A model generated the notes under the pieces. That model was given only the letters and a program-made list of their open reading frames with translations. It was not told where the DNA came from and ran no database searches. A stretch of DNA of 64,000 nucleotides from NCBI GenBank assembly GCA_029552745.1, contig JAKPDK010000184.1, positions 124,001-188,000 of the forward strand, in the 5' to 3' direction. Origin of the DNA: Candidatus Hydrogenedentota bacterium. Lineage in GTDB: Bacteria > Hydrogenedentota > Hydrogenedentia > Hydrogenedentales > SLHB01. Position numbers and translations under genes: made by a program. The number at the start of each line of letters is the position of its first letter. The first letter of the stretch is position 1. Positions 5,047 through 52,961 of the stretch are shown here, in pieces.

Positions 5047-7794
5047 TCAGCGGGCGCCATGACCGGGAGCGCCACTGTGCCCATAGATGTCTGTGTCTAG
5101 ATAGGCTTGGTCATCCAGCGGCACAAAATCGTAGAGCGCTGACCAGTTAAAGTCTTTGTCAAAGGGGTCCAACGCTTTTTCCGGATCAAACACTTCTGAA
5201 TTGACGGGCAACGCCGTATAAGGCTCTATGTTTTCCGGTGTTCCCTCAAACATGTCCCACAAGTCTGTGGCAAAGCCGTCATACTGATTTAACGAGGGAA
5301 TACCCAGAATTAAGAACATGGTCTTCAAAATACTCGCAATACTGCTGTGAATATGCGAAATATACCCCCGTTTCGCATAAGGGCTTATGACCATACAAAC
5401 CGACCGATGGGCATCCACCGTGTCCCGATAGCCTTGCGCATCGTCTTCTGTCACAAACATCACCGTATCTTTCCAGTACGGACTGTGACTAATTAATTCG
5501 ACCAACCTGCCCAACGCCAAATCGTTATCACTCATGTACGAACCCCAGAACGGATATCCATCTGCCGGACGTTCCCGGGCACCATGGTCATTGGGCAGCA
5601 TGATAGTTATCACATCTGGGAAAGGCTCGGCGCCCGACAACCACCGTTCACGAAATTCCTGTTCAAACATGTCCATCCGAAATTGGTCTGGAATCTGTGT
5701 ATTGTATGTGGCGTATCGGCGGCTCGTATTCTCAAACAGCGGTTTGGGCATGGGATAATTGATTGTCAAACGAATCCCCGTATCTGAATATTCCTTTTCT
5801 TCATCTTGCGGCTTAAATTCAAATCCCAAGCCAAAATTGAAGAACCGAATTTTGTTGCGTTCAAAGTGTTCCCATATCGACCCCGCCTCATTGTAATCCT
5901 CCGGATAGATCGCTCCGGAGGAACCAATAAACGAAAAGTTACCGGGACCCTCTCCCTTCGCCGACTCCCCAATACGCGCTTCCATGAACTCATTCGGATA
6001 TGTCCCAACAAGCCAACGATGGCCGTCAACCGAATGATCGGAGTCACAGTAAAAATTGTCACTTATCGCGAACCGCTTCGCCAGGGCTATGTGATTCGGC
6101 ATCAAGACAACGTCTTTGACCGTGCGCGAATTTTCTTGATTGGATACGTCTATCGGCCGTCCCAATCGGCATAACTCGGCATCCCCACGGCCTCCTGGCA
6201 AAGCGCCGAATACTTCGTCGTAGGTCCGATTTTCCTTCGTAACGTAAATGATGTGTTTGATTGGACTCCGTCGAATGCCGGGCGCAGGAGGAATGGGATT
6301 GTCCTCCGAACGTGGATCGTCTTTCAGCGCATAGAGCACTACATTGTTTTCGATAACGCGCTGCGTGAGCTCTTTCAAATGTTTGTGCGCGTCCTGCAAG
6401 TCCACAAGCAGAACATAACCCCTCATCAGAGCGCCAATTGACGTCGGATCGCCGGGGTGATGTCCCGGTCCCGCATTGGGACCCGAGCCGATCCCTTTTG
6501 CATTTGCCACATACAATTTCGTGCCATCCGGGGACACGGCTAACTTACTGGGAAACCACGCCACGGGAATGTGCCCCATCACCTTATGGTCCCGGAGTCT
6601 GATAACACCCACTGCATTGATCCCCGCTTCCGCCACATACAGAAACTCACTATCAGGCGACAAGGCAAGCCCAAACGGAATCATACCCCTTAAATGGTCA
6701 ACTTTGGGATGGAGTTTTAAGTCAATATCCTTCCAGCGTTTGCCCGATTTCGCCTCTATGATGGAAATACTGTCATTGCTCCCATTCGAGACGTAAACAT
6801 ATCGTTCTGTAGCCACGAGACTGTTCGGACTACTCCCACCAACCGCGGGAAAATCCTCCAGCTTTTCCCCTACGAGGTGTCCCGTCTTGGTTTTAGCAAT
6901 TACCTTTTCCGCACCGACTTCAGAAATATCAACCGTCCAAACAGACATACCCCGAATATCATTGGGATCGCCCAATCCGGGAATCTTGATTCCATCCATC
7001 ACAAAGCCCTGCTCTGCCTCCTGGGAAGGCACACCAAACGGAGGAAACGGCAATTTCGCTACATTGCCTTGGGAATCCCGAAAATAGGCATACTCATAAA
7101 TACCCACATTCGCCACATAGGCACGTTTCCCATCCGGCGACAACGTTATCCCAAATGGGTAACGTCCGACCGGAATTGACCGCAAAACTTTCTGGTCGCC
7201 GACGCTCACAACCAGCAAACGAAAGTTCGACTGGTCCACGGCATAAAGAATCCTTCCGTCCTGCGATAACCGCATGTCGCCAACATAACCATGTGGAAAC
7301 GTCAGACCGCCCGTTTCATGAGCACAATCAATCCGAAAAATTCGCGCCCGCGTCCTTAAGTCAAACGCCATAATGCTGTAATCGCTTCCACCCGCCACAT
7401 AGACCACCGAATTCGTCGGATCCACCGCAAGCCCCATGAAACAAGCATCCAATACACCTTTCCCCTCCTGGGCATTCTCCGGCACCCGATACTCAACCGG
7501 CTGGTCAGGATTCGATACATCCAAGAACGACAGCATCGGACCTTGGCTGCATGCCGTCACCACCCATTTCCCATCCGAACTCATTGTCAAGCCAAACGGG
7601 TGCGGCAAAACGCGAATCATCCGCCCCTGAGGCGTGATAAACCTCCCATTCGGTAAGACCGTCCTGCCTTGCGGGTCCAGTTCCACGTACTTATCTCCCG
7701 CCGGAGCCCGCATCAGCACCGGCTGCCGCGCCATCGCAACCTCGGCAAACAGTAAAACAAGAAGCCCAAACGCAACATAGTCTAACCTAAGCAT
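5047..7794 (-). CDS. Secreted beta-propeller/phosphoesterase fusion protein
   Basis: A 915-residue exported protein. A signal peptide (FGLLVLLFAEVAMA, cleavage near residue 21) precedes a YVTN/YncE-type propeller (about 40-480), visible as repeats such as YPFGITLSPDGKRAYVANVG, FGLALSPDSEFLYVAEAGI and PSKLAVSPDGTKLYVANAKG. The C-terminal part (about 525-860) is an acid-phosphatase/phospholipase-C-like phosphoesterase with KHIIYVTKENRTYDEVFG, SDHSVDGHRW and FVTEDDAQGYRDTVDAHRS. The frame is open 35 codons further, but the ATG at 7794 has GGGAG seven bases upstream and starts a proper signal peptide. TATAAT at 7839-7834 could be its -10 box. It probably cleaves phosphate esters outside the cytoplasm; substrate unknown. 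It is transcribed away from the transketolase gene. Confidence 0.82.
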   Translation of the reverse strand: MLRLDYVAFGLLVLLFAEVAMARQPVLMRAPAGDKYVELDPQGRTVLPNGRFITPQGRMIRVLPHPFGLTMSSDGKWVVTACSQGPMLSFLDVSNPDQPVEYRVPENAQEGKGVLDACFMGLAVDPTNSVVYVAGGSDYSIMAFDLRTRARIFRIDCAHETGGLTFPHGYVGDMRLSQDGRILYAVDQSNFRLLVVSVGDQKVLRSIPVGRYPFGITLSPDGKRAYVANVGIYEYAYFRDSQGNVAKLPFPPFGVPSQEAEQGFVMDGIKIPGLGDPNDIRGMSVWTVDISEVGAEKVIAKTKTGHLVGEKLEDFPAVGGSSPNSLVATERYVYVSNGSNDSISIIEAKSGKRWKDIDLKLHPKVDHLRGMIPFGLALSPDSEFLYVAEAGINAVGVIRLRDHKVMGHIPVAWFPSKLAVSPDGTKLYVANAKGIGSGPNAGPGHHPGDPTSIGALMRGYVLLVDLQDAHKHLKELTQRVIENNVVLYALKDDPRSEDNPIPPAPGIRRSPIKHIIYVTKENRTYDEVFGALPGGRGDAELCRLGRPIDVSNQENSRTVKDVVLMPNHIALAKRFAISDNFYCDSDHSVDGHRWLVGTYPNEFMEARIGESAKGEGPGNFSFIGSSGAIYPEDYNEAGSIWEHFERNKIRFFNFGLGFEFKPQDEEKEYSDTGIRLTINYPMPKPLFENTSRRYATYNTQIPDQFRMDMFEQEFRERWLSGAEPFPDVITIMLPNDHGARERPADGYPFWGSYMSDNDLALGRLVELISHSPYWKDTVMFVTEDDAQGYRDTVDAHRSVCMVISPYAKRGYISHIHSSIASILKTMFLILGIPSLNQYDGFATDLWDMFEGTPENIEPYTALPVNSEVFDPEKALDPFDKDFNWSALYDFVPLDDQAYLDTDIYGHSGAPGHGAR

Positions 7795-8137
7795 CTTTAC
7801 GCTCCCACTGAAAAAGCAATACACTGATACACAATTATAGCCTAAAGGAATCTTCAAATAACCAAAATAACTAGTAACCATGGTAACAATTTTTGACATC
7901 GGAAAAATTAGAACTCAGTTTCTTTAGATTCCTGGAAAAGGACCATTGTTAGAAATGAATTGTCCTAGACTTCCTTTTTTCGGCAAAATGCAAGACCTCT
8001 GGACAAAGAAGAAGCAAGTTTTCTTTCATTTCGAATCCCATGTCCGATTTTGTTATACTTAGGGTCTTCCGATACATTTTGGTGGTTCCCCAAGCATGGT
8101 GAGTTTTTGTGTTTCAACTGCAAGAGGATGATGCAAC

Positions 8138-10033
8138 ATGAATTTTCCAATTGATGTAAGCGGCTACAAACCTTTGTGTCTCGACCCCAATCGTCCTGAA
8201 CTGACAGCGGATGAAAAACGTCAGCTAGAAACAAATGTCCAGATCGTGCGAGATACCATCGTCTTTTTCACGGCGATCGCAGGCATCAAAGGCCTTGCTG
8301 GGCATACCGGCGGCGCCTACAGCATTGTCCCGGAGGTGCTGATCGTCGATGGTTTCATGCACGGCAGTAAGGCCATTTACCCGGTTTTCTTCGATGAGGC
8401 TGGGCATCGCGTTGCCATTCAATACGCCATGGCTGCTTTCAACGGAGAAATGCCTTTTGAAAAACTCCTGCACTATCGGGAGTACGGTCACGGCTTGTTC
8501 GGGCACCCAGAACGTGACCCCCGCCTCGGCATCAAGTTCAGCTCCGGACGACTCGGACATCTCTGGCCCTTTGTAAACGGTGTTGCCCTCGCAAATCGCG
8601 ACAAGACCGTTTTCCTGTTTGGCAGCGATGGCTCTCAGCAAGAGGGAGATGATGCCGAAGCAGCGCGCCTCGCTGTGGCGCAAAAGCTTAACGTGAAAGT
8701 CGTTGTGGACGATAACGACGTGACAATTTCCGGGCACCCGTCCAAGTACCTGCCCGGATATGACGTCGCCAAGACGCTAGCAGGACACGGCTTAGTAGTA
8801 GATTCCGGCTCCGGCGAAGATTGGGTCGAATTGTACCGCCGTATTCAAAAAGCCATCGCCACCGCGGGCCCTGTCGCCATTGTCAACAAACGCGTGATGG
8901 CGCCCGGGGTCCCCGGTATCGAAGGCTCTCACGCGGGGCATGACGTCATTAAGAAAGACCATGCCATTGAATACCTCACCAAACGCGGCCACACAGCGGC
9001 GGTAGAATACCTGAATCAAATCACGGTGCCCAAAACCCAAGTCTCCTTCCTCGGGTGTTCGGCAGAGACCTGCAGCAATCGCACCGAGTTTGGCGCCATC
9101 GTGAATGGCATTCTCGACCGAATGAACGAAAATGACCGAAAGGCTCGTGTCATCGTGATTGATTCCGACCTCGAAGGATCTACCGGTCTAAACGCCATTC
9201 GGAAAGCCCATCCGGAAGTTTGCATCAACGGCGGCGTACAGGAACGGGGCAACTTCTCCGCTGCGGCAGGTTTTGGCTTCGAAAAAGGGAAGCAAGGTAT
9301 CTTCAGCACGTTCTCGGCGTTTCTGGAAATGATCATTTCCGAAGCCACTATGGCGCGTCTGAATGATGCCAACGTCATCTGCCACTTCTCTCATGCCGGC
9401 GTGGACGACATCGCGGACAACACGTGCCATTTCGGCGTCAACATCTTTCTCGCCCATTCTGGACTGCCAGAGGGTGACAAGACCCGTCTCTACTTCGCCG
9501 CAGACGCTCTCCAACTCAAACAGATCGTCGAAACCATATGGGACGACGAAGGGGTACGGTACGTATTTACGACCCGCTCCAAAGTACCCTTCATCCTGAA
9601 AGAAGACGGGGCCAAGTACTTCGGAGACGGTTATACCTTCGTCCGCGGCAAAGATGAGCTCATCCGCGAAGGCACCGCCGGATATGTCGTATCCTATGGA
9701 GAAATGTTACACAGGGCGCTTGACGCCGTCGAACGACTCCGCCAACAAGGGGTTCAGGTGGGACTGATCAACAAACCGACCCTTAATGTCGTTGATGAGG
9801 ACATGATGCAACGCATCGGAAAGTCCCCATTTGTCCTCGTCGTAGAAGGACAAAACCAAAACACCGGTCTAGGAAGCCGCTTTGGCAGCTGGCTTCTGGA
9901 ACGGGGCTATACCCCAAAATACGCTTCTATGGGCGTCGTTCGACCCGGCCACGGCGGCACCACCGAACAAGTGCCTCACCAAGGACTTGCCCCCAACGAC
10001 ATCCTGGCAAAAATCAAGACGTTAATCGCTTAA
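8138..10033 (+). CDS. tkt: Transketolase
   Basis: A 631-residue full-length transketolase, joining both halves that some bacteria split. It moves two-carbon ketol units between pentose and triose/hexose phosphates using thiamine diphosphate. The ThDP motif is visible as GSDGSQQEGDDAEAARLAVA followed by DDNDVTI. SSGRLGHLWPFVNGVALA and GGVQERGNFSAAAGFGFE mark the N-terminal and pyrimidine-binding domains, and the C-terminal domain ends normally. The upstream region has GAGG ten bases before ATG and TATACT near 8055 as a possible -10 box. A strong hairpin follows the stop. It is single-gene, divergent from the phosphoesterase. Confidence 0.9.
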   Translation: MNFPIDVSGYKPLCLDPNRPELTADEKRQLETNVQIVRDTIVFFTAIAGIKGLAGHTGGAYSIVPEVLIVDGFMHGSKAIYPVFFDEAGHRVAIQYAMAAFNGEMPFEKLLHYREYGHGLFGHPERDPRLGIKFSSGRLGHLWPFVNGVALANRDKTVFLFGSDGSQQEGDDAEAARLAVAQKLNVKVVVDDNDVTISGHPSKYLPGYDVAKTLAGHGLVVDSGSGEDWVELYRRIQKAIATAGPVAIVNKRVMAPGVPGIEGSHAGHDVIKKDHAIEYLTKRGHTAAVEYLNQITVPKTQVSFLGCSAETCSNRTEFGAIVNGILDRMNENDRKARVIVIDSDLEGSTGLNAIRKAHPEVCINGGVQERGNFSAAAGFGFEKGKQGIFSTFSAFLEMIISEATMARLNDANVICHFSHAGVDDIADNTCHFGVNIFLAHSGLPEGDKTRLYFAADALQLKQIVETIWDDEGVRYVFTTRSKVPFILKEDGAKYFGDGYTFVRGKDELIREGTAGYVVSYGEMLHRALDAVERLRQQGVQVGLINKPTLNVVDEDMMQRIGKSPFVLVVEGQNQNTGLGSRFGSWLLERGYTPKYASMGVVRPGHGGTTEQVPHQGLAPNDILAKIKTLIA

Positions 10034-47287: not shown

Positions 47288-47477
47288 AGGACTCCTCCAC
47301 ACTCATGCCGAAACTTTCCTGAATCATGTTGCAATAAAACAATGCACTTTCTTAAAAAGATGTGACACAGAGCAACAATACAACTTGCCTCCATGAGAGC
47401 GCAAAAAGACACACCCACGTCCGCCCGTCATCATTTCCTTGACGGTTCTCTCCTCAGCAATCTCGTATCCCCCCGGT

Positions 47478-47620
47478 GTCATTGCGAGGAGCGAGTCCCC
47501 GAAGCTACGAAGCAATCCCCTCAACCGCGTAGCGCAAGAGGGCGCCGCACTAGGTTGCGACCTTCCCAAACTACCCGAGGGGATTGCCTCGTCGTGCCTG
47601 ACGGCACTCCTCGGAATGAC
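47478..47620. repeat. Dispersed 140-bp palindromic element, full copy
   Basis: GTCATTGCGAGGAGCGAGTC at the left, CACTCCTCGGAATGAC at the right, inner arms CTACGAAGCAATCCCC and GGGGATTGCCTCGTCG, central CGCGTAGCGCAAGAGGGCG. It matches the elements at 13723 and 59613. No gene is seen in 47288-47859. Confidence 0.85.
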
Positions 47621-47859
47621 AGATGGCCACGTAGCGCGAGAAAACGTCGTGCAAAGATGGAACTCTCCCAGAGCCCCTAAGAAAAACCGAAGGTGGCTCA
47701 GATATACTCATGGCGGGCGCACGTTTGCGCCTTCTACGTCTTCAACGGAAAACTCTCACTCTCGAATTGCTCCCAAGAACAAATCGAACGTGTCAAGGGT
47801 GCCCGGCTCATGCAATTGTTTGACTTTTTGGAAGCAAATGTATAGGCTAATGGCTCTGT

Positions 47860-47938
47860 CGGGGCGTAGCGCAGCCCGGTTTAGCGCGCTTGGTTCGGGA
47901 CCAAGAGGTCGGTGGTTCAAATCCACTCGCCCCGACCA
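47860..47938 (+). tRNA. tRNA-Pro (anticodon CGG)
   Basis: Acceptor CGGGGCG / CGCCCCG, D arm GCGCAGCCCGGTTTAGCGC, anticodon stem CTTGG / CCAAG with loop TTCGGGA (anticodon CGG), T arm GGTGGTTCAAATCCACT? truncated here to GGTTCAAATCC, discriminator A and encoded CCA. It lies about 100 bases before the first attC-like site. Confidence 0.95.
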
Positions 47939-48038: not shown

Positions 48039-48177
48039 TCCTAACGGTCTGCGTTAGCCGCTGGTGCGCGGGCGTGGATTCGCTTCGAGAGCAGGAAAAG
48101 CCCGAAGCCAGAAAAATGCTTGAAAACGGCGCAGAATCCCACCCGTCGGCTGCACGCTTTGTTGGCACGCTTTTGTT
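48039..48177 (-). repeat. attC-like palindromic site 1
   Basis: On the minus strand it runs from GCCAAC (with AAAGCGTGCAGCCGACGG) to CGTTAGGAA. The outer ends are degenerate matches to integron R boxes. It lies 45 bases after the mazF stop. Confidence 0.4.
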
Positions 48178-48222
48178 GCACAAGACTCTACATGCTTTGA
48201 AGTTGCTAACGAATTAAGGTAC

Positions 48223-48537
48223 CTAACTTCTTGAAATTTCATTGAACTTTTCGGGTGGCAACTTACAACTAAATTGCGCTTTCCTTGCGTTCCAATCAAG
48301 ACTTTTCACCTGATCAGATAGAATTGCGGCTTTGACTTCCAAACCTTCGGGTATCAAAACTTCAAATGGATACCCTTTGATCCGGCTCGTAATTGGACAG
48401 AGCAATGCTAAACCAACTTTCCTATTATATGCTTTTGGAGACAAAACCAGCGCTGGCTTATAACCTGCCTGCTCATGTCCTGCTTGCGGATTGAACATAA
48501 TCCAAACGATGTCGCCGCTATCGGAAACGTATGCCAT
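48223..48537 (-). CDS. mazF: MazF-family mRNA interferase toxin
   Basis: A 104-residue PemK/MazF toxin: DSGDIVWIMFNPQAGHEQAG, then PALVLSPKAYNRKVGLALLC and PITSRIKGYPFEV are the usual blocks (an Arg-Pro-type region here reads YKPALVL). MazF cleaves single-stranded mRNA at short sites. The start is 5 bases after the mazE stop, so the pair is coupled. It belongs to a row of minus-strand genes separated by attC-like sites. Confidence 0.92.
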   Translation of the reverse strand: MAYVSDSGDIVWIMFNPQAGHEQAGYKPALVLSPKAYNRKVGLALLCPITSRIKGYPFEVLIPEGLEVKAAILSDQVKSLDWNARKAQFSCKLPPEKFNEISRS

Positions 48538-48541
48538 AGGT

Positions 48542-48784
48542 TCACCAAACTTCGTTGCCTACGGCAAGACCCGTGTCAACTTCGGTATGAAGATTATCTT
48601 TTGTGATGCCTGCAAGCAATTCGTCAAGCGTCCAACGTGGAGCAGAAACGGGCGTGACGATAATTTTGCCTTTGACAATGCTTATTTCGACCGAGGAATC
48701 GTTTTCCAATTGAGCGTCAACCGCAAAGGCTTTTGGAATTCGCAGGGCATGACTGTTGCCCCATTTCTGAACTTTTGTGAGCAT
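48542..48784 (-). CDS. mazE: MazE-family antitoxin
   Basis: An 80-residue AbrB-fold antitoxin with the opening KVQKWGNSHALRIPKAF and the middle SVEISIVKGKIIVTPV; the C-terminal tail is the toxin-neutralising part. It precedes mazF and should bind the promoter of the pair. AGGAG lies eight bases before ATG. A weak -35/-10 pair (TTGAGC-N17-TGTAGA) lies upstream. Confidence 0.92.
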   Translation of the reverse strand: MLTKVQKWGNSHALRIPKAFAVDAQLENDSSVEISIVKGKIIVTPVSAPRWTLDELLAGITKDNLHTEVDTGLAVGNEVW

Positions 48785-48871
48785 AAGGTTATCTCCTGTA
48801 TGTTTCTACAATGAAGATACACCTTTCGCTCAATTTTTCAAGGGCTACTTTTGCAAGGGGCGTACCAAAGG

Positions 48872-48932
48872 CCGGGTTCAGCCGCGTTGCGGAGCGCAGC
48901 GGAGCAACGTCGGCTGCAACCCGGTGTTAGCC
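48872..48932 (-). repeat. attC-like palindromic site 2
   Basis: An imperfect stem: CCGGGTT, CAGCCG, CGTTGC on one side and GCAACG, CGGCTG, AACCCGG on the other, with single extrahelical bases at 48910 and 48917. The outer GGCTAAC (minus strand) contains the ClC gene's stop codon, as often seen in integron cassettes. The matching outer box on the other side is not recognisable. Confidence 0.5.
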
Positions 48933-50528
48933 TGTTTCTTGTCTGAGAGCATTGGATGCCTGGCATCCCTGACGCAATTTCTCCAGAGCATGGGAAGCTT
49001 CAGGCGCAATGACCACGGTAATTCGCGTATACGGTTCCAGGCGAGTGTTTGCCTTCGGCACCCATTCTCGTCTCCCATCGGCACATCGGATTATAATGCA
49101 CCCGCCTGGAAGCCCGAGAGAGCGTATCTCGCGGCCTGCGAATGGAGAATGAGGCTCAATCGTAAACTCCACGACTATCGGCTTCTTCAATACTTGTCCG
49201 CCTCTGCTGCGCTCCAAATCACGGTCTAGAAGTGCTTCGTAAATCGGCAAATCCCCTAAGTATTCCGCAACAACGTATGCGAAGAAACAGCTTACTAATA
49301 GGGGTAACATCAGTGAATAACTGCCGGTCATCTCGACAATGAGCATAATGGCTGTGAGGGGAGCACGGACTACGGCAGTGAAATAGGCAGCCATCCCAGC
49401 CACGGCAAGAACCGCCGGTATGGGCGTAACTCCTGGCGCCAATTGGTGAGCAATTTGCCCAACGCCAAGACCGATCAATGCACCTAGTACAAGCATTGGC
49501 GCAAAAATACCGCCGGGAGCGCCTGTTCCGTAGCTGATCATGGTAAGCAAAAATCGGACGACCAAGAAGAGGGGAATGGCGGCAAGGGATATGTCTCCTT
49601 TCAGAGTGGCTTCCACGAGTGAGTCCCCACTACTTAACATCAGTGGTGAAAACCACCCCGCCAGTCCAACCATTCCACCTGTTAGGGCGGCGGCAGGTAA
49701 CATAAAACGAGCTGGTAGACGGCTGTACCCTTCCACAATAGCTAACAGGCTTCGGTTGAATAGCACTCCGAACAAACCTGCCAATACCCCCAGCAAGGCG
49801 AAGGCTGGTAGGGAAACCAGAGGAGGCATAGGATAACTTGGGACGGCGACAATCGGGAATTGGCCCGAACCCATTCGTATAATAACATCCGAGACTATCG
49901 CCGCAACCAAAGTAGCGCCGAATACAATAGGCTGAAAATCACCCCGTAATTCCTCAAGCACAAATATGGTTCCAGAGAAGGGAGTATTAAACGCTGCGGC
50001 TAACCCTGCACCTGCTCCCGCCGAAATTAATACCAGGCGCTCCCGCTTTGATACTTTCAGCAACCGTGAAAGGGCATCACCCACCGTCCCACCCATCTGG
50101 ACGGTGGGACCCTCACGCCCCAAAGCCAACCCACTTCCAATGGCAAGGATACCCCCAAAGAATTTCACTGGCAGGACGCGCTTCCATTCCAGTTCGCGGA
50201 ATCGGCGGAGCACAGCTTCCAAATGTGGAATACCGCTTCCACTGGCTTCCGGCGCATAACGTCGTGTGATAGCGACTGCGACTATCGTCCCAAGGAGTGT
50301 GAACAAAACGGGGAAAGTCCACCCCCACGGGGGTTTACTGTGCGCCCGAGAAAGAATCTGATTCCTCAAAACGCCCGCGCCAGTCAGTGCAGCGCGAAAT
50401 AACAAGGCAGTGATACCGGCGCAAGCACCGACCAACACGGCACGAGGAAGAATGCGCCTTCGTTGTTGTCGGGTCGCAAAATATTCTTGGATTTCAGAGC
50501 GTTCCGATTCGTCTGTATTGTCCGGCAT
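48927..50528 (-). CDS. ClC-family H+/Cl- exchange transporter with TrkA-C domain
   Basis: A 533-residue ClC protein. The ion-path signatures are GSGIPHLE, GREGPTVQMGG (gating Glu in GREGP) and GGIFAPMLVLG. A second glutamate in FVLEELRGDF, at the position of the proton glutamate of E. coli ClcA, suggests exchange rather than channel activity. After the membrane domain (about 30-440) a TrkA-C-like regulatory domain (about 450-520; SPFAGREIRSLGLPGGCIII) ends the protein. It is bounded by attC-like sites on both sides and shares its stop with one of them. E. coli ClcA has about 473 residues and no TrkA-C domain. Confidence 0.9.
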   Translation of the reverse strand: MPDNTDESERSEIQEYFATRQQRRRILPRAVLVGACAGITALLFRAALTGAGVLRNQILSRAHSKPPWGWTFPVLFTLLGTIVAVAITRRYAPEASGSGIPHLEAVLRRFRELEWKRVLPVKFFGGILAIGSGLALGREGPTVQMGGTVGDALSRLLKVSKRERLVLISAGAGAGLAAAFNTPFSGTIFVLEELRGDFQPIVFGATLVAAIVSDVIIRMGSGQFPIVAVPSYPMPPLVSLPAFALLGVLAGLFGVLFNRSLLAIVEGYSRLPARFMLPAAALTGGMVGLAGWFSPLMLSSGDSLVEATLKGDISLAAIPLFLVVRFLLTMISYGTGAPGGIFAPMLVLGALIGLGVGQIAHQLAPGVTPIPAVLAVAGMAAYFTAVVRAPLTAIMLIVEMTGSYSLMLPLLVSCFFAYVVAEYLGDLPIYEALLDRDLERSRGGQVLKKPIVVEFTIEPHSPFAGREIRSLGLPGGCIIIRCADGRREWVPKANTRLEPYTRITVVIAPEASHALEKLRQGCQASNALRQETG

Positions 50529-50593
50529 TTAGAAATCTTTCTCGTGGACTTCGTTGTTCATATGCGCCAATAATGCTCTACAAAAAGTGGGCT

Positions 50594-50720
50594 GGCTAAC
50601 GGTTGGTTTCAGCGACAGGGGCGGGACGGGCAAGACACCTTCGGCTAAAAATTACTCGACTGACTCGCGGCGCATACCCGCAAGCGGCGAAGCCGCTGTC
50701 CGCTGCAACCGGTGTTGGGC
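50594..50720 (-). repeat. attC-like palindromic site 3
   Basis: Outer boxes are GCCCAAC (minus strand, matching RYYYAAC) and GTTAGCC (one mismatch to GTTRRRY). The inner part holds CCGCTTGCGGGTATGCGCCG and GAAACCAACCGTTAG. The internal sequence is related to that of site 4. Confidence 0.55.
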
Positions 50721-50748
50721 AGTTTTTAGACCCCAAGACTCCTTTGAT

Positions 50749-51036
50749 TTAGAACAAATGTATAAATACATCAGGTTTTTGTTCAGCAATACGTAACAGT
50801 GCAATTGCTGGACCGCTTGGCTTGCGCCGCCCCTGTTCCCAATCTTGAATGGTTCGCACGCTAACGCCCATCAGACCAGCAAACGCCGATTGGGACAGTT
50901 TTAATTTGGTGCGAATCACTCGCACAGGCGCAGGTCCTTTCAAAATATGGGTACGCAAGGCTTTCTTGCCAGCCTTGTAAGTCTTGACTTCTCGGATACC
51001 TTCGAGAATTTCCATTCCAATATCACGCTTAGTCAT
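50749..51036 (-). CDS. HigA-type helix-turn-helix antitoxin
   Basis: A 95-residue antitoxin with an XRE-type DNA-binding domain at the C-terminal side (LKLSQSAFAGLMGVSVRTIQ, DWEQGRRKPSGPA). ATG at 51036 has AAGGA eight bases upstream. The ATG overlaps the original stop of the HigB-like toxin by 8 bases (ATGACTAA), the usual toxin-first order. It is presumed to repress the pair's promoter at the palindrome at 51350-51366. It appears intact although the toxin is not. Confidence 0.85.
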   Translation of the reverse strand: MTKRDIGMEILEGIREVKTYKAGKKALRTHILKGPAPVRVIRTKLKLSQSAFAGLMGVSVRTIQDWEQGRRKPSGPAIALLRIAEQKPDVFIHLF

Positions 51037-51340
51037 CGTCAATTTCCTTTGCAATTTCACGCAGAACATGAGTGGGGATATTTTCTGCTTCGCTTTTACT
51101 TTAAATGGTCAATAACCAGATTTCATCCTCTTGTTTCTTGAAGTAGTAAATCACACGCACGCCTCCGCTTTTCCCTTTACCTGTCATTCTCCAGCGAACT
51201 TTGCGAACACTGCCTGAGCCAGGAACAACTTTGCCTGCTTCTGGATATTGGAGCAGGTAACTGTGCAAGCCCTGATACTCATCTTGCGACAGATACTTGT
51301 AAACATATTTTGTAAATGCGGTGGCGTCAATGAATTCCAT
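51029..51340 (-). pseudogene. HigB/RelE-type toxin truncated by in-frame TAA
   Basis: Residues 1-79 (GSVRKVRWRMTGKGKSGGVR, then VIYYFKKQEDEIWLLTI) are typical of RelE/HigB toxins, which cleave ribosome-bound mRNA. TAA follows at 51103-51101. The frame continues SKSEAENIPTHVLREIAKEI and ends at TAA 51031-51029, which overlaps the antitoxin ATG. Family members normally read LLT-x-Y-x-K-x-E here, so TAA replaces the conserved Tyr codon (TAT or TAC). The toxin is probably inactive; a full-length product would have 103 residues. Confidence 0.8.
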
Positions 51341-51346
51341 GAAAGG

Positions 51347-51375
51347 ATTATACGGCTAAGCCGTATATTTCTCAA
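51347..51375 (-). promoter_or_regulatory. Promoter and operator of higBA-type pair
   Basis: TTGAGA-N17-TATAAT on the minus strand; -10 at 51352-51347. The 17-bp perfect palindrome ATACGGCTAAGCCGTAT (51350-51366) overlaps the spacer and -10 box, as expected of an antitoxin operator. The toxin ATG begins six bases after the -10 box, so the message would be leaderless. Confidence 0.7.
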
Positions 51376-51436
51376 GTCCCATTTATGTTTTGTCCCATTT
51401 CTGTTTTGCACTCATCCATCGTTTGTGAAAGCAACT

Positions 51437-51539
51437 GCCCAACGGTTGGTTTTAGCGGCAGCGGCGGGGCGAGCAAGAGGCCTTCGCCTAAAACTCAACA
51501 CGGCTGGCTCGCGGCGCATACCTACAAACGGTGTTGGGT
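51437..51539 (-). repeat. attC-like palindromic site 4
   Basis: Outer boxes GCCCAAC (51437-51443) and GTTGGGT (51533-51539) match the integron R consensus RYYYAAC / GTTRRRY in either orientation. The interior is related to site 3 (AACGGTTGGTTT, CTCGCGGCGCATAC, CGGTGTTGGG). Confidence 0.6.
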
Positions 51540-52357
51540 GGCTTCTCGGAACGCCAGACACCATGCCTGAAAACAAGAACCACTGCCAACTTGACAAAAT
51601 TATTGCACGGACCCTTGCCTCTTGCAACAACCCAAAAGCCTGACTTGCCAAAATGCTCGCTGTTCAAAGACCAACGACCGATTGAAAATCATCATGCCGA
51701 ATTGAAAACCTGACATAACCAAACAGCGACTTTGCCATTGAAGCCAACTTGACTTGATAAACTGAACTTGCCAAAAATTTTGCGAAAAGAAAGCCAGCCG
51801 ATTTGAGAGACCCGTACATGATGCGCAAGGAAACCAACCGAAGCAAAGAAACCAGACCTGCAAGATAACGGGCTATGCGGAATTGCTATCTGAATGATTC
51901 GAGAACGCCGCTGTTCGCTCGACAAATTCCTTTCTGCGGGGATGACGGCAGAAATAACCGTACCCGAACGCAAGCGCAAACTCGCAAAGTGGATGCTCAA
52001 TCAGAAATCAACCAACTCGTAATCGTAAGTGCCCCTTTTGGCTCGGCAATTTTCGACATTGGGTAACATCTGAAATCTTGTGCGCTGGTCTCCATCTTTT
52101 CGCTCACCGTTTCTGATGGCTTTGGAAGACGCCTTCCTTTGCAAAGACAGCCACCCCCAGTATTCTTTTTCGGCGTGCTCGTCCGCTGAATACAGCGTAC
52201 TTTTGAGTACAGTGATATACTAGTTCATTGTTCCTCCTTAGCTTTTAGATTGTATTTGTTTATCGCTGAACGCAACTGGGTGAACGGCGGTGGTAGTGTA
52301 CCCTGAATTGTGTGAAATTTGGTAGGGCATAGGGCTTGAAGCAGGCATAAGATAAAA
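51540..52357. other. Non-coding stretch after cassette array
   Basis: Only short ORFs with atypical residue use are found. It is where a further cassette would sit, but no gene or ribosome-binding site convinces. Confidence 0.5.
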
Positions 52358-52421
52358 AAAGGCGCTTTTCCTTGTAGATTTGATCATCCAATCAAAAAAT
52401 CAAAAAATGAGAAGCGCCTTG
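52358..52421. repeat. Inverted repeat around IS256 transposase start
   Basis: AAAAGGCGCTTTTC and GAGAAGCGCCTT flank about 40 bases and could pair in the mRNA over the transposase start region. Confidence 0.5.
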
Positions 52422-52961
52422 AAATTAGAAGTCAGCGTACCGGAAGTTATGGAGTTCATCAAGGCTATCGAAAAGACTCCGGAGAATTTTTCTGAGATGA
52501 TCCGATTTGATGTAAGAGAGGCCACAGGCAGGTATCTAACAACCCTGATGAGGGCGGAGTTGGACCATTTTCTTGGCAGGAGGCCGTATGAGCGCATGAG
52601 GGGTTCTAACCACAGAAATGGGTCATATCCTCGTCGCTGGACATTCAAGGGCATAGGAGAGGTAAAAGCCGCTGTGCCCCGTGACAGATTGGGGGCATTC
52701 ATGACCCAAATACTGCCGAGAAGCAAACAGTATGAAGAAAAAATCGTTAAGGATTTAAACTTGTTATTTTTGACGGGCGCCAGTACTCGTAGTCTTTCCA
52801 TGATCTTAAAGCGGCCTATAGGCAGAAAGATATCGGCTACAGAGATCAGTAAGGCCAATGTAGAGTTAACAGAAGCCATTGAGCGGTGGCGTAGTCGTGA
52901 TCTATCAAGTGAGCATATCAAGTATATCTTTCTGCCGTTTCCTGTCTATCCAGGTCAATAG
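52380..52961 (+). pseudogene. IS256-family transposase, N-terminal remnant
   Basis: The first 180 codons match a mutator/IS256 transposase (LMRAELDHFLGRRPYERMRG, IVKDLNLLFLTGASTRSLSM, RKISATEISKANVELTEAIE). Sequence diverges right after HIKYIFL, where the family continues with D-G and the first catalytic Asp. The rest of the DDE domain is deleted, so the protein cannot transpose. The 3' end of the same gene appears from 52966. Confidence 0.8.

Follow-up and report, generated by a model that had tools for sequence, protein, structure and literature searches.

Groups of attC sites that lack an integron integrase, called CALINs, are recognised by two or more attC sites that lie within 4 kb of each other without intI (PMC9668308, PMC9024848). 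They are common and taxonomically wide, and an integrase acting in trans can still mobilise their cassettes (PMC9024848, PMC9668308). The hallmarks of attC sites, R''/L''/L'/R' inverted repeats and extrahelical bases, guide IntI towards the bottom strand (PMC8946536). In sedentary chromosomal integrons, such as that of Vibrio cholerae, toxin-antitoxin (TA) pairs occur as cassettes, and integron TA cassettes carry promoters of their own (PMC11023631).

We analysed a 64-kb window, by which we mean the whole stretch of DNA presented above, and find that positions 48039-51539 almost certainly form a CALIN, with four attC sites, three cassettes and no integron integrase recognisable in the genome. 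Like other CALINs, the locus lacks intI, its cassette genes all lie on the same strand, and two or more of its attC sites are spaced by less than 4 kb. It departs from them in nothing essential, although its attC sites differ from one another and damage is visible in two of the four. With sedentary chromosomal integrons it shares attC cassettes, TA pairs as cassettes and a chromosomal-type location; unlike them, it has only four sites, no integrase was found and no attI came to light, and its attC sites do not show the uniformity that is usual there. The array is a small decayed CALIN with heterogeneous, partly damaged attC sites, and membership in a sedentary chromosomal integron goes beyond the evidence.

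Results

Within its 615-kb contig, the locus occupies about 172-175.5 kb; the 4.36-Mb genome is a draft of 188 contigs and is 99.7% complete. Read along the minus strand, the cassettes are ordered head to tail: mazEF with attC1, clcA with attC2, a higBA-like pair with attC3, and then attC4, which is the leftover of a further upstream cassette. The earlier note had described mazEF, a ClC antiporter and a higBA-type pair alternating with four palindromic sites on the minus strand; all are present, and their coordinates are refined here (scores of attC sites are from the first and second covariance models described below).

48039-48167, minus: attC site 1, 129 nt, 3' end of the mazEF cassette, also found by motif scan; R'' TGCCAAC, L'' GTGCAGCCGAC, R' GTTAGGA; 17.3 and 20.5 bits
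48223-48537, minus: mazF toxin gene; PF02452, 86 bits; NCBIfam MazF, 126.8 bits, over cut-off
48542-48784, minus: mazE antitoxin gene; PF04014, 36 bits
48863-48932, minus: attC site 2, 70 nt, 3' end of the clcA cassette; R'' GGCTAAC, then a spacer and TTGCAGCCGAC; R' degenerate; 38.1 bits (E 2.3e-7) and 46.3 bits
48927-50528, minus: ClC chloride/proton antiporter gene (ClcA-type) with a C-terminal TrkA_C; PF00654, 337 bits; NCBIfam ClcA, 469.9 bits, over cut-off
50594-50720, minus: attC site 3, 127 nt, 3' end of the higBA-like cassette; R'' GCCCAAC, L'' TTGCAGCGGAC, R' GTTAGCC; 19.0 and 26.5 bits
50749-51069, minus: Xre/MqsA-like HTH antitoxin gene of the higBA-like pair; PF01381 and PF15731, over cut-off
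51101-51340, minus: RelE/HigB-like toxin gene of the higBA-like pair; weak PF06296 match, E 0.0024, below the Pfam cut-off
51347-51375, minus: sigma-70-like promoter in the higBA-like leader, TTGAGA-17-TATAAT, 11/12, a consensus match only
51437-51539, minus: eroded attC site 4, 103 nt, R boxes intact; 11.4 and 11.7 bits (E about 0.2)

The window had been described as free of integrase genes, and tblastn detected no integrase remnant anywhere in its 64 kb. A search of the whole genome with the integron integrase profile TIGR02249 likewise gave no match over the 265-bit cut-off. Partial matches were confined to two Xer-sized ORFs of 316 and 318 aa, each aligned in two pieces (profile positions 9-187 with 236-302 in one ORF, and 11-181 with 239-301 in the other), such that positions 188-235 were unaligned in both. 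Since the skipped stretch is what we take to be the location of the extra domain specific to IntI, these ORFs most likely encode XerC and XerD. That the locus is a complete integron whose intI was merely missed by the assembly, or is located in another part of the genome, is therefore very improbable: the genome is a draft and a same-family genome does carry a complete integron, but nothing passed the TIGR02249 cut-off at 99.7% completeness, and the array sits deep inside its contig.

We searched for attC sites with a covariance model built from 17 sites that lie outside the window. Class 1 integrons supplied nine of them, the plasmid array of Gemmatirosa kalamazoonensis five, an intI-bearing contig of a same-family genome two and a Shewanella phage one. 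Covariation backs the structure of this model (94.5% of cells paired; score 0.273 versus 0.121 +/- 0.018 in shuffles). At E<=10, the only matches in the whole window were sites 2, 3 and 1, in that order of score and all on the minus strand. The only matches in the 4.36-Mb genome at the same threshold, with the best 150 of 850 candidates scored, were these three sites. Their genome-wide significance is weak for site 1 (E 3.4 per genome) and site 3 (E 1.2), but the fact that the sole three matches among those 150 candidates fall within 2.7 kb on one strand indicates more than chance. Site 4 ranked fourth in an unfiltered 10-kb scan, with 11.4 bits on the minus strand versus 9.5 on the plus strand (E 0.24), and by itself is indistinguishable from background. 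Adding eight attC sites found in the phylum gave a second model, which scored sites 1-3 higher and again placed site 4 fourth in an unfiltered scan, this time of 12 kb; since it includes sites found with the first model, the higher scores are not fully independent. As a control, we scanned approximately 60 kb surrounding ClC relatives, which contained no attC model match at E<=1.

Sites 2, 3 and 1, which the independent model matched, have neighbours 0.7-1.7 kb apart. The cassette genes share one orientation, and each cassette is followed by an attC site in the matching orientation, as the model matches lie on the minus strand with the genes.

We also looked for the 103-127-bp repeats outside the array, as the earlier note had proposed. 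BLAST of the 4.36-Mb genome revealed no further copies of sites 3 and 4, the other matches being 14-27 nt long with E>0.8, so the repeats are not scattered elsewhere. An exact-pattern scan of genome contigs for the half-site of site 3 gave two matches, about the chance level, and neither locus had an attC model match. Short BLAST matches of site 3 in two other genomes (G011 and G012) lay within sequence common to both and had no attC features. Dispersed REP-, BIME- or MITE-like repeats that had fallen between genes by chance would also be palindromic and intergenic, and two of the sites are about 80% alike; however, the absence of further copies of sites 3 and 4, the confinement of the sites to one run in one orientation with one site per gene unit, and the attC model matches make this reading hardly credible. 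Together, the matches to an independent attC model, the absence of an intI over the cut-off in the genome and the lack of scattered repeats bear out the CALIN label that had been suggested for the layout.

Within the array, a motif scan revealed that sites 1-3 share one layout in the gene sense: an R''-like box, a short spacer and an L''-like stretch. Their gene-proximal half is that of known attC sites, such as aadA1 (TTCAAGCCGAC) and the Gemmatirosa array (TTGCAGCTGAC), with which they share an extrahelical base after TT and a second one before the final C. Site 2 had been called an imperfect stem with extrahelical bases, and its fold agrees: it forms a strong stem with two extrahelical bases (DNA z = -4.4, with 0 of 200 shuffles as good), and its plus strand, the bottom strand, folds into 6 bp, an extrahelical base, 6 bp and another extrahelical base, as does the aadA1 attC. 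When folded as whole sites, sites 1, 3 and 4 did no better than shuffles; because these three sites have long variable terminal structures, the whole-site test is uninformative for them. The attC hallmarks are thus seen by folding at site 2, and by motif and model at sites 1 and 3.

As the earlier note had stated, the interiors of sites 3 and 4 are alike. Identity there is 83% over 59 nt and drops to 66% when the alignment is taken in full, since site 4 carries a 25-nt deletion. The claim that the boxes of both sites match RYYYAAC and GTTRRRY holds exactly for both boxes of site 4 and for GCCCAAC of site 3, but GTTAGCC of site 3 has one mismatch.

The stop codon of clcA (TAA, 48929-48927) lies within GGCTAAC, so the outer box of site 2 does contain the ClC stop, as had been noticed. 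The distance from stop codon to R'' is 55 nt for mazF and 28 nt for the antitoxin gene. A role of the palindromes as transcription terminators, or as RNA structures at gene 3' ends, would fit their position just downstream of stop codons and the strong fold of site 2, but can be set aside with near certainty, as none of the terminator-like sites in our scan coincides with them, no Rfam match occurs there, and they carry the R boxes and extrahelical bases of attC sites and are matched by the independent attC model on one strand.

On the other side of each site, leaders of 78, 65 and 96 nt separate R' from the next start codon. In addition to the promoter-like sequence of the higBA-like leader, the mazEF leader contains one that matches the consensus at 9/12 positions (a consensus match only); overall, promoter-like sequences were not clearly more numerous than in shuffles.

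A broken second copy of the HigB-like toxin gene, 54% identical and with internal stops, is present in the same genome (G000:C97:3160-3393, L078 / L093), on a 4-kb contig without an attC match.

Several features flank the array. The approximately 800 nt to the right of site 4 (51545-52360) hold no credible gene and are perhaps the remains of a fourth cassette; in 51545-52400 we found no tandem repeat, and this stretch has no second copy in the genome. Beside the array lies a truncated transposase of the IS256 (mutator) family (52380-52961, plus), with an inverted repeat at 52359-52420. To the left, a tRNA-Pro (CGG) (47860-47938, plus) ends about 100 nt from site 1, and 47474-47623 contains an inverted repeat, imperfect and with arms at 47507-47522 and 47577-47592, which resembles a dispersed intergenic repeat.

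We compared the locus with 68 genomes of the phylum, which are drafts of about 50 to 1350 contigs. IntI exceeded the cut-off in one of the 68 (G064, of the same family; 446.7 bits), where it accompanies two attC sites and a BrnT/CopG cassette. This complete integron (L026) resembles the present array in attC architecture and in carrying a TA cassette; it differs in having a full IntI next to the array and in the variable terminal structures of its attC sites. A looser integrase search added partial matches, below the cut-off, in G046 and G065 (G046:C48:804-1319, L109, and G065:C437:3641-4180, L110); these integron-integrase-like sequences, which match across roughly the first 180 positions, score 127 and 120 bits, respectively, and G046 also carries an attC match.

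attC sites were found at E<=0.01 with the first model in six genomes, including the present one and G064, which contributed to training, and at E<=0.05 with the second model in 12, partly by construction. One contig of G049 (C10, 5768-10277, L059) has three attC sites on one strand within 4.6 kb and no integrase; one interval between its sites holds four consecutive ORFs (5870-9213), many for one cassette. A contig of G053 (C170, L092), a genome without an intI over the cut-off, has five attC model matches on one strand, with a BrnT toxin and a RelE/Xre pair related to the present one between the last two; the RelE-type gene that adjoins the Xre gene there is the relative of our RelE/HigB-like toxin gene. 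No attC sites were found around relatives of the ClC antiporter (42-46% identity) or of MazF in the phylum.

An attC site of G040 shows, along its length, 80% identity with site 2. Site 3, in its proximal half, shows 85% identity with attC sites of G049, G052 and G064. Thus, by sequence comparison, attC types similar to those of the present array occur in other members of the phylum.

Discussion

The 48039-51539 locus adds a further example to an already known class of integron remnant. Its past can be pictured as follows. An integron integrase, later lost or acting in trans, would have recognised the folded hairpins of the plus strand (the bottom strand), cut at the R boxes and joined the cassettes into a string. 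Expression of the TA cassettes is probably driven by promoters that they carry themselves, and they would be retained because their loss is harmful to the cell; clcA may have been carried along between them.

Damage to the sites bears on whether the cassettes can still move. Aligned with site 3, site 4 shows a 25-nt gap, in which most of L'' and a neighbouring portion of the terminal structure are missing; in site 2, the covariance-model alignment reveals an R' box whose GTT has lost its G. Each cassette is flanked by at least one damaged site: mazEF by sites 2 and 1, clcA by sites 3 and 2, and the TA pair by sites 4 and 3. As excision needs two working attC sites, all three depend on one damaged site (attC2 or attC4). 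Thus, excision is probably impaired and the array is now probably close to immobile.

For the phylum, one genome of 68 with an intI over the cut-off stands against 6 to 12 with attC matches. This raises the idea that the phylum's cassette arrays mostly persist without a resident integrase, moved in trans or from outside and held by TA pairs, as a pool largely independent of integrases. We regard this as an unlikely, tentative extension of our data, and fragmented drafts could produce the same integrase-poor picture.

For specialists, the array is informative and not surprising, CALINs being common and taxonomically wide. It documents an integron remnant in a sparsely represented phylum, in which the same scan revealed one integrase-bearing integron and several integrase-less arrays. 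TA pairs recur at three loci of the phylum, which fits the idea that TA cassettes stabilise arrays.
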